Both the position numbers and the translations under genes were made by a program. From Acidimicrobiales bacterium (GTDB lineage Bacteria > Actinomycetota > Acidimicrobiia > Acidimicrobiales > Aldehydirespiratoraceae): a stretch of DNA of 64,000 nucleotides. The notes under the pieces were generated by a model that saw nothing but the letters and a program-made list of their open reading frames with translations, did not search any database and was not told the origin of the DNA. The stretch spans positions 248,001 to 312,000 of the forward strand of contig JAVJSI010000009.1 of the NCBI GenBank assembly GCA_040219515.1. Reading direction: 5' to 3'. Position 1 is the stretch's first letter; the number at the start of each line of letters is the position of its first letter. Shown piece by piece: positions 11,168 to 62,794 of the stretch.

Positions 11168-11180
11168 CACCTGTCAAGGG

Positions 11181-11223
11181 CAACGCTTCGCGTTGCTGCA
11201 GTTCGGCTGCGCCGAACTCCCCG
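11181..11223. repeat. dispersed palindromic element, copy 1 (short form)
   Basis: Two adjacent hairpins: CAACGC-TTC-GCGTTG (11181-11195) and AGTTCGG-CTGCG-CCGAACT (11200-11218). The segment closely matches 59361-59404 in the same orientation, differing mainly around a loop and in the linker. It lacks the GGGGTC-n-GACCCC hairpin of the long copies. It lies between the kinase stop and the tetR promoter. Confidence 0.75.
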
Positions 11224-56467: not shown

Positions 56468-57541
56468 TCACCCGCCGGGGTCGACCAGCGGACGGCAGCG
56501 CAACGCCAGCTCGAGGGTGAGCCGACCGTCCGGGTCGCGAAGCGAGTAGCCGGTGAGTTCGGCGATGCGGTCGAGGCGATAGGCCACTGACCGGGAGCCG
56601 AGCGACAGGTCCCGGGCGACGGCGGCCATGTTGCCACCGTGAGCCACGAACGATGCGAGCGTCTCGAGGAGGTCCCCGCGCCGGGACTGCACCAGCGGCG
56701 ACAGGACCGAATCGACGAGGGCCGCCGCGACCACCGGGTCGGCGGCGAGCATGCGATGAGCCAGCAGCGAATCGAAGACGGCGAACTCGTCGAGTCCGAA
56801 GATGCGGCTCAGGCGCAGCGCCTCACGGGCGTCGTCGTATGACCGGTGGATCTCGGCCAGACTCGTGCTGGGACGTCCGACACCACACCGCCACGCCCCG
56901 GTGTCGAGGGCGGCGAGCGACAGTTCCACGACTCGTAGCTCCGCCGGCGACGCCGTGGGGGCGATGACCACCAGCTGTCCGGCGGTGACGAACGTGGTCA
57001 TCTCCCGGCCCGGGGCCCGAGACCGGATCTCGACCTGCACTCGCTCGTGGACCGGCCCCAGTTCGGACAGGGCCGTGGCGCTCTCGGCGACGAGCACGAG
57101 CTGCACCGGCTCGGCCGGAATGGCGGCCAGCCGGGCCCGCTCCTCGAGGTGCGTCACGTCGCCGCGCCCGGTCAGCAGCTCGTGGATGACCTCCCGGCGC
57201 AGCGCCTCCTCCGCCTGGATCGAACGGCGTTGGGCGGCCTCGAAGCCGGAGGCGAGCCCGGCCACGGCGTTCTCCGACACCCGCCGCAGGGTGCGGCCGA
57301 CCTCGACCGCCATGCCCGGCTCGGTTGCTCCGAAGACGTTCTCCCACAGTTCGGCCGCGCCGGCGAGATAGGCCTCGATCAGCTGACTGAGCGAACCGCC
57401 GGTCCCGTGGGCCGCTTCGCCGGTCGCGAAGATCTCCTCACGCTCCCCGATGGTGAGATCGCGTTGATCGTCCGCCGCGTCGAGCACGAGCTCGAATACC
57501 TGCGCCAGTCCCGGCGCAATCCACTCCGAACGCGTCGTCAC
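56468..57541 (-). CDS. PucR-type helix-turn-helix transcriptional regulator
   Basis: A 357-residue regulator. The C-terminal HTH typical of PucR/CdaR is seen in GGNMAAVARDLSLGSRSVAY with RLDRIAELTGYSL. The middle GGDEF-like region shows GVGRPSTSLAEIHRSYDDAR. The N-terminal third is helical (residues 1-120), as in RsbRD-like sensory domains. The target genes are unknown. GTG start overlaps the acetyltransferase stop (GTGA), so both are in one operon. Confidence 0.85.
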   Translation of the reverse strand: MTTRSEWIAPGLAQVFELVLDAADDQRDLTIGEREEIFATGEAAHGTGGSLSQLIEAYLAGAAELWENVFGATEPGMAVEVGRTLRRVSENAVAGLASGFEAAQRRSIQAEEALRREVIHELLTGRGDVTHLEERARLAAIPAEPVQLVLVAESATALSELGPVHERVQVEIRSRAPGREMTTFVTAGQLVVIAPTASPAELRVVELSLAALDTGAWRCGVGRPSTSLAEIHRSYDDAREALRLSRIFGLDEFAVFDSLLAHRMLAADPVVAAALVDSVLSPLVQSRRGDLLETLASFVAHGGNMAAVARDLSLGSRSVAYRLDRIAELTGYSLRDPDGRLTLELALRCRPLVDPGG

Positions 57542-58026
57542 AGTGGTTCACGACGCATGCGGATCTCGTCCTTGCACGGGTCCGACGGCGGTGGCTGGAA
57601 GTCGCCTGTCGTCACGAAGCCGCATCGTTCGTAGAGCCGAACGGCGGCGTCGTTGCCCTGCGTCACCCACAGCTCGACCCGCGCATCGCCCGCCCAGGCG
57701 ACAACCGCGCCGACCAGTGCCGCGCCGACGCCTCGCCCCCGAGCAGAAGCGTCGGTCCACATCGACACGAGCTCGATGGTCGCGTCGTCGGTCCGGTGAC
57801 CGCCGACGAGTCCGACCACATCGCGGCCATCAGTGGCGAAGAAGGTCGCGTGATCCGGCCCTTCCGACCGCTCGACGGCCCATTCGTCCCACCGCCTCGA
57901 CGGCAGTTCGGCCTCGGCGGCATGGGTGCTGCCGAATGCCGTCGGTTCATCGGCCAGCGCGCCCAGCCGGACCTCGCGCAAGAGCGCACCCTCGTCGGGC
58001 CGAACCCGTCGCGTCGTCACCGTCAT
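57538..58026 (-). CDS. GNAT-family N-acetyltransferase
   Basis: A 162-residue acetyltransferase of compact GNAT form. The acetyl-CoA loop is DASARGRGVGAALVGAVVAW. Then comes the RVELWVTQGNDAAVRLYERC block with GFVTTGDF, as in ribosomal-protein or small-molecule acetyltransferases. The start MTVTTRRVRPDE is natural for the family. The longer open frame upstream is excluded because it runs through a palindromic element. It is coupled to the PucR gene. Confidence 0.87.
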   Translation of the reverse strand: MTVTTRRVRPDEGALLREVRLGALADEPTAFGSTHAAEAELPSRRWDEWAVERSEGPDHATFFATDGRDVVGLVGGHRTDDATIELVSMWTDASARGRGVGAALVGAVVAWAGDARVELWVTQGNDAAVRLYERCGFVTTGDFQPPPSDPCKDEIRMRREPL

Positions 58027-58080
58027 CGCCCCATGCTTGCGCACCCACCGCCGCCCTGCCGGGCTTTCACCGTTGCATCC

Positions 58081-58149
58081 GGGAGTTCGGCCCCAGCCGA
58101 ACTCCGAGCAACGCGCCGCGTTGCCGGGGTCAGACCCCCGTTGCAGTTC
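58081..58149. repeat. dispersed palindromic element, copy 2 (long form, inverted)
   Basis: Three hairpins in a row: GAGTTCGGC-CCCA-GCCGAACTC (58083-58104), GCAACGC-GCC-GCGTTGC (58108-58124) and GGGGTC-A-GACCCC (58126-58138), then TTGCAGTTC. It is the inverted counterpart of 59335-59402; the stems are conserved and nearly all differences fall in loops and linkers. It forms the left boundary of a unit holding the dioxygenase gene. Confidence 0.85.
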
Positions 58150-58181
58150 ACGTCGGACCAACGGCTCCGGTGCCCGGATCG

Positions 58182-59264
58182 TCAGAAGAGAATCGGAATC
58201 TGGTCCCTTGGCGAGTAGCCCTCGTCGTTGGGCCGCATCATCTCGACATAGGTCGACGGGCTGAGGAGCCATGTCTCGATCGCGTGGCGATCCTCGGTCA
58301 TCTCCGGATCGATCGCGGTGCGGTGCAGGTTCATCTGATCGAAGAAGAGCGCGTCACCCGGCTCGAAGATCGGCCGTACCAGCGCCCCCTCTGCCACCTT
58401 CTCGGCTTCGGCCGGACTGGTGGCCCAGGGCGAGAACGCGCCGTCGCCCGTCGGCACGATGTAGTCGAGCCGCTTTGCGACCAGGTCCATGCCCGGCGCC
58501 GTATCGCCGCAGTGGGTCAACGGAATCCAGATGTTGAGCGAACGGATGCCCGAACCCATGAACGCGCCGTCCTGATGCCATCCTCCGGTGTTGCCACCGT
58601 GGGCGATGCGGCGAAGCGTTCCCTTTCTCCCGAGCAGTAGTGGCTCTTCGCCGAAGTACTCGCAGACGAGTCGATCGAGCCCCGTTTCCCGAAAGGTCTC
58701 GACGAGGTCGAACATGGTGGCGGGCGACTCGACCGTCAGGATCGACCCCCGGGAACGCTTTCGTTCGCGGTCACTGGCCTTGTCGCGGGAGAACGGCGTG
58801 TACCAGCGCCGGGTATCCGCATCCTCATCGCCGGAGGCCACCACGTCGAACGACGAGAGCGCCCGGTCGATGTCATCGCGGAGCTCAGCGACGCGGCTCG
58901 AGCCGACGACGCCCCGAACGTGCAGCGAACCCTGATGGGTCATCGCGCTGCGAAGGACATCGAGATCGAGATCGCTCGCGTCGATTTCGGGAAATGGCGT
59001 GCCCTCGAATCGGTTCGGCACGTGCTCGGGCCAGGGCGGCCGGGACTCGGGCCAGACGAACGCTTCGGCCGCCGCCGACCGCAACTCGATCAGGCGTCGC
59101 TCCAGACGGTCGTCACGGGCCGCCCGGTTCGCAGCCGTCAAGGTGTCGATCGCGCCGCGGAAGTCGCCATCCTCGGCCATTCGGTTCGCGTCACGAAGGA
59201 TCGACTGCGCATCGCCCGTGCTCTCAGGCTTCTGATCGGGTCGTTGTCGACGCCACAAGCGCAT
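58182..59264 (-). CDS. phytanoyl-CoA dioxygenase-like Fe(II)/2-oxoglutarate oxygenase
   Basis: A 360-residue member of the PhyH superfamily. The iron-binding H-x-D is in GGWHQDGAFMG and the distal His is in the C-terminal region around FFDQMNLHRTAID. The Arg for 2-oxoglutarate probably follows. Residues 1-60 are a charged helical N-terminal extension (MRLWRRQRPDQ, and an ANR-rich helix), unlike the rest. GGAGG precedes ATG 59264 by 5 nt. The substrate is not predictable; halogenated or lipid substrates are possible. Inverted palindromic elements flank it on both sides. Confidence 0.82.
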   Translation of the reverse strand: MRLWRRQRPDQKPESTGDAQSILRDANRMAEDGDFRGAIDTLTAANRAARDDRLERRLIELRSAAAEAFVWPESRPPWPEHVPNRFEGTPFPEIDASDLDLDVLRSAMTHQGSLHVRGVVGSSRVAELRDDIDRALSSFDVVASGDEDADTRRWYTPFSRDKASDRERKRSRGSILTVESPATMFDLVETFRETGLDRLVCEYFGEEPLLLGRKGTLRRIAHGGNTGGWHQDGAFMGSGIRSLNIWIPLTHCGDTAPGMDLVAKRLDYIVPTGDGAFSPWATSPAEAEKVAEGALVRPIFEPGDALFFDQMNLHRTAIDPEMTEDRHAIETWLLSPSTYVEMMRPNDEGYSPRDQIPILF

Positions 59265-59334
59265 GGGTCCCTCCACGTCGGACAACGGCGAGGGTACCGA
59301 ACACCACCGGTGCCGTCGACAGGTCGACCTGCCC

Positions 59335-59402
59335 GAACTGCAACGGGGGTCTGACCCCGGCAACGCTCCGCGTTGCTTGGAGTTCGGCTGCGCCGAACTC
59401 CC
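59335..59402. repeat. dispersed palindromic element, copy 3 (long form)
   Basis: GAACTGCAAC, then GGGGTC-T-GACCCC (59346-59358), CAACGC-TCC-GCGTTG (59361-59375) and AGTTCGG-CTGCG-CCGAACT (59381-59399). It is the right-hand, inverted partner of 58081-58149 and lies between the dioxygenase start and the thiolase stop. The last 44 bp also match 11181-11223. Confidence 0.85.
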
Positions 59403-59414
59403 CGAATGCAATGG

Positions 59415-60578
59415 TTACTTGGTGGCGCCGACGATCCACATGGCGAAGTACTGGGCGCCGCCGCCGTAGGCGTGGCCGAAGGCGGTGCGGCAGCCGTCGA
59501 CCTGATGCTCGCCGGCCTCGCCCATCACCTGCATGGCCGACTCGGCGAAGCGGACCATGCCCGACGCGCCGATGGCATTGGTCGACAGCACCCCGCCCGA
59601 GGTGTTGACCGGCAGGTCCCCGCCCTCGAGATTGGTGGAGCCGTCCTCGACCATCCGCCAACCCTGGCCCTTCTCGGCGAAGCCGAGCGACTCGAGCCAC
59701 ATGGGCTCGTACCAGGAGAACGGCACGTACATCTCGACCGCGTCGATCTCCTTGCGGCGGTCGTGGATGCCGGCCTGGGCGAACACGTCGTCGGCGCACT
59801 GCTCCGACGCAGCGGGCGACACCATGTTGCGACCGCCGTAGGAGTTCGACTCCGAACGCATCGCGGTGCCCTTGATCCAGGCGACCGGACCATCGTGGGC
59901 GTCGCCCCCGGCCTCGTTCGTGAAGACCATCGCGCACGCACCGTCGGACGACGGGCAGGTCTCGGAGTAGCGGATCGGGTCCCACAGCATCGGCGACTCG
60001 ACGACCTGCTCGAAGGTCAGGTCGTGCTGCTGGAGATGGGCGTACGGGTTCTTCAGCGCATGCTGACGGTCCTTGAACGCCACCATGCAACCGATCAGAT
60101 CCGGCGCGCCGGACATCGCCATGTAGCGACGCATGATCGGCGAGAAGTAGCCGCCGGCACCGGCGTTGACCGAGGTCGTGAACGGCTGCGGGAGCGACAG
60201 CGCCCACATCGCATTGGATTCCGACTGCTTCTCCCAGGCGATCGTGAGGACGGTCTCGTGAACCCGACTCTGCACCATCGACGCGGCCACGTTGGCGGTC
60301 GACCCGCCGACCGAGCCGGCCGTATGGACACGCATGATCGGCTTGCCGACGCACCCGAGCGCCTCGGCCAGGTAGATCTCGGGCATCATCACGCCCTCGA
60401 AGAAGTCGGGCGCCTTGCCCATCACGACGGCGTCGATCTCGTCCCAGGTCTTCCCGGCCATCTCGAGGGCCCGATAGGCGGCCTCACGCAGGAGCCCGGC
60501 CATCGAGACATCGCCCCGGGTCGAGGCGTACTTGGTCTGTCCGACCCCGATGACGGCAGTTCTCTCTTTCCCCATCAC
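59415..60578 (-). CDS. thiolase-fold protein lacking the nucleophilic Cys (Ltp2-like), copy 1
   Basis: A 387-residue thiolase-superfamily protein of the SCP-x/lipid-transfer branch. In place of the nucleophilic Cys segment it has VHTAGSVGGSTAN, and in place of the catalytic G-H-x-x-G it has LSTNAIGASG, while the C-terminal motif reads GHAYGGGAQYF. A true thiolytic reaction is therefore unlikely. The pattern recalls Ltp2-type retro-aldolases, which act with DUF35 partners in steroid side-chain loss. Starts with GTG overlapping the stop of the second thiolase-fold gene. Last gene of the operon. Confidence 0.78.
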   Translation of the reverse strand: MMGKERTAVIGVGQTKYASTRGDVSMAGLLREAAYRALEMAGKTWDEIDAVVMGKAPDFFEGVMMPEIYLAEALGCVGKPIMRVHTAGSVGGSTANVAASMVQSRVHETVLTIAWEKQSESNAMWALSLPQPFTTSVNAGAGGYFSPIMRRYMAMSGAPDLIGCMVAFKDRQHALKNPYAHLQQHDLTFEQVVESPMLWDPIRYSETCPSSDGACAMVFTNEAGGDAHDGPVAWIKGTAMRSESNSYGGRNMVSPAASEQCADDVFAQAGIHDRRKEIDAVEMYVPFSWYEPMWLESLGFAEKGQGWRMVEDGSTNLEGGDLPVNTSGGVLSTNAIGASGMVRFAESAMQVMGEAGEHQVDGCRTAFGHAYGGGAQYFAMWIVGATK

Positions 60579-62727: not shown

Positions 62728-62794
62728 CGCTGGGGTCAGACCCCCGCTGCAACTTTGCGCCCGCCGCAGTTGGGACGGGGGTCTGACCCCAGCG
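62728..62794. repeat. large palindrome related to the dispersed elements, copy 4
   Basis: A perfect 19-bp inverted repeat (62728-62746 and 62776-62794) around 29 bp. Each arm contains GGGGTC-n-GACCCC, the hairpin seen in the long copies at 58 and 59 kb, so the whole forms a cruciform with nested hairpins. It lies 6 bp after the amidohydrolase stop and upstream of the operon promoter. Confidence 0.85.

Follow-up and report, generated by a model that had tools for sequence, protein, structure and literature searches.

The window (the whole stretch of 64,000 nucleotides that was analysed) carries three co-directional genes on its minus strand: a thiolase-like gene (59415..60578), a gene for a 360-aa PhyH-type Fe(II)/2-oxoglutarate dioxygenase (58182..59264; PF05721, E = 1.3e-7), hereafter PhyH, and a GNAT acetyltransferase gene (57538..58026), the first and the last being the upstream and downstream neighbours of PhyH. 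The strongest inverted repeat of the region, with arms at 58069-58149 and 59335-59415, encloses exactly one gene, as the first-pass annotation had stated, and the product of this gene is assigned at the level of the PhyH family. Copy 1 (58069..58149, plus strand) is placed between the 3' end of PhyH and the start of the GNAT gene, and copy 2 (59335..59415, minus strand) is docked on the stop codon of the thiolase-like gene, with its first base completing the TAA. In an optimal alignment 74 of 80 aligned bases were identical (92.5%), with two 1-base gaps, in agreement with the figure of about 93% previously estimated by eye. Copy 1 consists of a left arm (58069-58080), a 45-bp module X (58081-58125), a core palindrome (58126-58138, GGGGTCAGACCCC), which we designate the TIR/REP core, and a right arm (58139-58149). 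The module holds hairpin A (58082..58105, plus strand, GGAGTTCGGC-CCCA-GCCGAACTCC) and hairpin B (58108..58124, plus strand, GCAACGC-GCC-GCGTTGC). Copy 2 shows, on the minus strand, the right arm at 59335-59345, the core at 59346-59358, hairpin B at 59360-59376, hairpin A at 59379-59401 and the left arm at 59403-59415, so that the three hairpins per copy formerly described were all found. The limits first given to the elements (58081-58149 and 59335-59402) missed the 12 left bases of copy 1 (ACCGTTGCATCC) and positions 59403-59415 of copy 2; what had been called a 69-bp element is made up of the nested module together with core and right arm.

Mismatches between copies 1 and 2 were located in loops and linkers, and this part of the initial description holds. 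The accompanying claim that stems are maintained does not hold throughout, since among the five composite repeats of this kind found in the genome (see below) the one on C5 has both hairpin A and the core broken, and stem conservation is therefore not absolute. The stem of hairpin B was invariant across the five composites, while its 3-nt loop was different in all of them. Elsewhere in the window, a lone hairpin-B-like palindrome (GCAACGCTTCGCGTTGC) is present at 11180-11196 without a core, and at 62732..62790 two further cores with arms of mixed type (62732-62744, plus, and 62778-62790, minus) form a short, REPIN-like inward pair, whose docking point is the TAG stop codon of the adjoining minus-strand gene.

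The first-pass annotation had proposed a search of the whole genome (4.02 Mb, 19 contigs, 68% GC), and this revealed a dispersed family: the exact core GGGGTCAGACCCC was found 92 times, and its reversed control pattern was not found at all. All 92 cores contained GGGGTCAG. The basic repeat, type 1, is ~35 bp long and has the structure ACCGTTGCATTC-GGGGTCAGACCCC-CGTTGCAGTT; alignment of all 92 cores further distinguished type 2 (AGTTGGGACACC-core-CGTCCCAACT) and type 3 (AGTTGCAGCGCT-core-CGCTGCAACT) arms. The cores are distributed over 69 sites, 22 of which are clusters, and 18 out of 23 neighbours inside clusters face inward with a spacing of 23-65 bp. No match to the repeats was obtained in Rfam, and searching the literature with the core sequence gave no result.

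Compared to the plain type-1 repeat, the copies flanking PhyH contain an extra 45 bp (58081-58125 and 59358-59402) that harbour hairpins A and B. This composite is present at five sites of the genome in an identical arrangement, with pairwise identities of 85-92.5%, which indicates that it has multiplied as one unit. Copies 1 and 2 were 92.3% and 92.4% identical to the composite on C16, respectively, and 92.5% identical to each other; the PhyH pair are thus not clear nearest relatives among the five composites. A local duplication of one copy into the other was also considered and rejected, as the equally high identities with the C16 copy gave it no support. The 45-bp module, searched with a query of 68 bases, also stands alone in the genome (C14:5795, C10:161225 and C11:190919) and occurs in relatives, among them G001 and G003, whose genomes contain hardly any cores. 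Four modules of relative G002 interrupt a GGTGTC|AGACACC-type core precisely at its centre, and one module of G005 splits GGGG|TGACCCC. Together with the composites described here, these mid-core positions show that, in three lineages or more, different repeats received the module, and that the nested form multiplied in two of these lineages. The central position within the transposase-linked palindrome produces a cloverleaf-like shape, in which one outer stem encloses both hairpins of the module, as in the four G002 copies.

The earlier observation that no transposase lies near the pair was confirmed, and the RAYT/IS200-type gene whose search elsewhere had been recommended was found in the form of three Y1_Tnp genes in other parts of the genome. 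The C4 gene is bracketed by inverted cores (C4:61361+/62282-) with type-2/3-like arms, the C7 gene by inverted cores (C7:291416+/292387-) with type-1 arms, and the third, on C13, by a variant inverted repeat, GGTGTCAGACACC. Y1 genes flanked by inverted repeat copies also exist in G004, G005 and G020. The encoded proteins of ~290 aa score above the cut-off for PF01797, and the NHxH and RYxHRNP (tyrosine) motifs were invariant in five aligned proteins, three from this genome and two from relatives. All three fell below the cut-off of 80 bits of the NCBIfam model NF047646 (REP_Tyr_transpos), with 35.6, 49.5 and 42.4 bits, and a PDB search with one of the transposases returned no relative. Among 61 genomes surveyed, a Y1_Tnp match was present in all nine with at least five cores, and none of the 49 genomes without Y1_Tnp reached five cores (Fisher p = 1.3e-8). 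Moreover, in G004 the core is preceded by CATACTTTCT both at a transposase gene and in the repeat docked on the thiolase stop codon, and the two corresponding places in G005 share CGCTTCAACT. Such lineage-specific matching of arms ties the repeat to the transposase more firmly than mere co-occurrence. Some transposase matches in relatives had no core within the 1.5 kb examined; the link between repeat and transposase is observed in some lineages and presumed for others. Passages of PMC3733652 give GGGGWSAS as the consensus of TIRYT repeats, with which GGGGTCAG agrees, and passages of PMC6006769 also attribute GGGGWSAS to the repeats of TnpA-Y1 subclass 2.1. Because of the flanked transposase genes, the co-occurrence and the matching arms, we assign the elements to the TIR/REP-type repeats of TIRYT (RAYT-like) transposases, and from their copy number and co-occurrence we infer that they are moved in trans. 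The initial analogy with a REP-associated transposase acting in trans has thus gained a link to Y1/HUH genes of the same genome, the movement in trans being the conjectural part of it.

In 35 of the 92 cores (~38%), an open reading frame upstream has its stop codon exactly at the edge of the element, 13-14 bases before the core, examples being C7:260790, C12:137297, C1:133227 and window position 59415. The docked genes end where the orthologues of relatives end, i.e., they have not been shortened, and therefore the repeats were placed at natural gene ends and do not truncate genes. Furthermore, at the superoxide dismutase, acyl-CoA dehydrogenase and thiolase genes, the type of repeat found at an identical stop codon varies between genomes, as would be expected if docking points were used more than once or if one repeat type were exchanged for another. 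The stop codon of superoxide dismutase in G004, G005 and G001 comes from the repeat core itself (TC-TGA-CC), and two acyl-CoA dehydrogenase paralogues with TPFKDLPRN-like ends, at C1:133227 and C7:291416, each have a stop-docked repeat, the latter of which also forms the left flank of a transposase gene. According to passages of PMC3733652, GTAG REPs often supply stop codons. Docking at stop codons means that repeats of this kind can mimic cassettes that bracket a gene.

The most serious alternative is that the pair and PhyH form a composite mobile cassette, in which the Y1 transposase would excise and insert repeat, gene and repeat together as a unit of single-stranded DNA, perhaps in the way it handles its own gene. 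The inward geometry and the spacing of the pair match those of two transposase genes, and similar arrangements are in excess in this genome. Neighbouring site pairs 100-2000 bp apart amounted to 12, with nine inward, two outward and one direct; two inward pairs enclose transposase genes and seven enclose about one gene each, when ~0.5 inward pairs are expected under uniform random placement, a null that leaves regional clustering aside and under which the inward excess is real. In addition, the presence of two of the five composites at one gene has a rough chance of ~0.7% (ten pairs, <=1.3 kb, 4 Mb). Independent insertion alone leaves both the inward excess and the two composites at one gene unaccounted for. 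Against the cassette, no such excess was seen in relatives, where just 1 out of 6 pairs of the same distance class was inward (G002 plus G005, with signs swapped in G005, whose centre base is inverted, and with the pair around its own transposase left out; the cores of G004 were listed only in part). The first-pass annotation had also contemplated a random placement of the pair relative to genes. This is contradicted by the docking at gene 3' ends (35/92) and the inward excess in this genome, but not by G002 and G005, in which the excess is absent.

The fate of the bracketed genes in relatives was followed by means of a synteny search with one chimeric query of protein fragments from flanking and bracketed genes, whose matches were verified by tblastn on the DNA of the relatives. 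Three of the six other bracketed genes, at C7:260790 (78 aa), C12:136706 (SRPBCC) and C12:299370 (LLM), reside at the same place in relatives devoid of the repeats, so that in these cases the genes were already resident when repeats arrived around them. The bracketed C14 gene has a 63% relative at another site in G002, with neither core nor variant core nearby, and the small open reading frame bracketed on C1 was not traced in the relatives examined. The best candidate for a truly inserted unit is the gene at C7:301525-303208 (~380 aa), which is missing from this place in G003, G004 and G005, where its neighbours adjoin directly, a point in favour of the cassette; this gene is located between convergent genes and is flanked by inward repeats. 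PhyH was likewise missing from the thiolase site in G004, G005 and G006, which is also compatible with a cassette, but the thiolase gene is followed there by other genes (SDR, lipoprotein, PadR) or by none, and the whole neighbourhood differs, including GNAT and further genes, so that none of the three relatives offers a clean, seamless empty site. The closest relative of PhyH (63%) was found in G002 at a different site, again with neither core nor variant core nearby, adjoining genes that, from a reading of their sequences, we take to encode a topoisomerase and a peroxiredoxin. As to whether the gene stays in place in relatives lacking the elements, the outcome put forward beforehand as adverse to a cassette, it does so for the three other bracketed genes and not for PhyH, whose site differs. 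Bracketing in itself does not mean cargo, and the first-pass reading of the dioxygenase as the cargo of a mobile cassette was not sustained, given the bracketed genes that reside at the same place in repeat-free relatives and the PhyH relative of G002 without repeats; the cassette was dropped as the main explanation after comparing the inward-bracketed genes with relatives. For PhyH a cassette is possible, with the geometry as its sole positive evidence, and we regard it as unlikely; the dioxygenase is most likely an ordinary bystander. A related proposal, that inward pairs turn resident genes into potential passengers of the Y1 transposase and that PhyH, the ~380-aa gene on C7 and the C14 gene have actually moved, we deem quite improbable. 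If true, the genome would hold several gene-sized units at different stages of becoming mobile, and the nested modules would show that repeats tolerate and carry inserts.

A transcriptional role of the repeats, as RNA or DNA punctuation at gene ends (terminators, mRNA stabilisers or insulators) which isolates the dioxygenase gene, was evaluated as well. The elements fold as single strands better than shuffled sequences (z about -3 to -3.9), their favoured position is directly behind stop codons, and both copies sit between co-directional genes; passages of PMC3733652 mention that REPs have been proposed to act post-transcriptionally. However, no intrinsic terminator, recognisable by a U tract behind a GC stem, was detected in 57900-59700, Rfam yielded no family, close relatives have the same genes without the repeats, and the presence of the repeats tracks the transposase and not the gene. 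The notion of a gene insulated by paired structures, also raised in the first-pass annotation, was consequently rejected, and punctuation seems to us very unlikely as the explanation of the pair, whatever secondary effect on transcripts the repeats may have. Chance similarity of GC-rich palindromes, which the 68% GC makes common when short, is already refuted by the core and control counts (92 versus 0), as well as opposed by the 92.5% identity of 81-base copies and the family-wide association with transposases, and its probability is practically nil.

We therefore favour, with good though not full confidence, that the repeats are independent non-autonomous TIR/REP copies of a TIRYT/RAYT-like Y1 transposase and that PhyH is bracketed by them without being cargo. 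The two segments would be separately inserted copies of a short hairpin-forming repeat. This repeat would be the terminal repeat (TIR/REP), in dispersed form, of a single-strand transposase of the Y1 (HUH) kind whose gene lies in another part of the genome, and the copies flanking PhyH would represent the basic unit extended by the nested 45-bp module X. By analogy with its family, the transposase would bind the hairpin as single-stranded DNA, cut beside it and join the repeat elsewhere; cleavage beside REPs has been demonstrated in vitro for this family (PMC8266576). The bracketing of the dioxygenase gene would result from one insertion in each of the gaps beside it, at the thiolase stop codon and on the 3' side of PhyH. 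For annotators this is a caution, as stop-codon-docked repeats can resemble cassettes without being any. The analysis also assigns a poorly studied branch of Y1 transposases (TIRYT) to a group of related genomes, in several lineages of which repeat and transposase clearly match. Arms differ there and the core is fixed, which amounts to a natural experiment on the features that the transposase recognises, and the composites reveal that repeats multiply even with a 45-bp structured insert inside.

These elements belong to a known kind, the TIRYT-linked repeats, with a new composite form. They share with the TIRtrons/TIRYT and subclass 2.1 systems, as portrayed in passages of PMC3733652 and PMC6006769, the Y1/HUH genes bracketed by GGGGWSAS inverted repeats, the dispersed copies occurring as dimers and singletons, the self-complementary cores and the ~290-aa proteins with an additional C-terminal region. 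The arm-core-arm direct-repeat format, the fast-changing arms and the nested double-hairpin module depart from what those passages describe, and the present set of related genomes does not figure in them. As in REP/REPIN (BIME) and RAYT (TnpA_REP) systems, there are short palindromes, inverted dimers (23-65 bp), location at gene 3' ends and one transposase per repeat type, and the repeat termini supply stop codons in the way reported for GTAG REPs in passages of PMC3733652; unlike canonical REP/RAYT, the alignment of all cores has no conserved GTAG (GT[AG]G) foot and the proteins remain under the NCBIfam RAYT cut-off (35-50 bits versus 80). With IS200/IS605 they have in common the catalytic superfamily and the subterminal hairpins, whereas no tnpB was seen beside the Y1 genes of this genome, and each of these genes exists in one copy, alongside numerous short repeats at dispersed sites. 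Finally, the double inverted repeats of P. putida and P. fluorescens, depicted in the part of PMC3733652 around Fig. 8B as degenerate GTAG units with unrelated stem-loops, offer a parallel for the fusion of a transposase-linked repeat to an unrelated stem-loop and its multiplication. Relative to that account, the repeats here are of other sequence families, and two hairpins make up their second module, which also occurs solitary and, in three lineages or more, became nested in repeats of different types.
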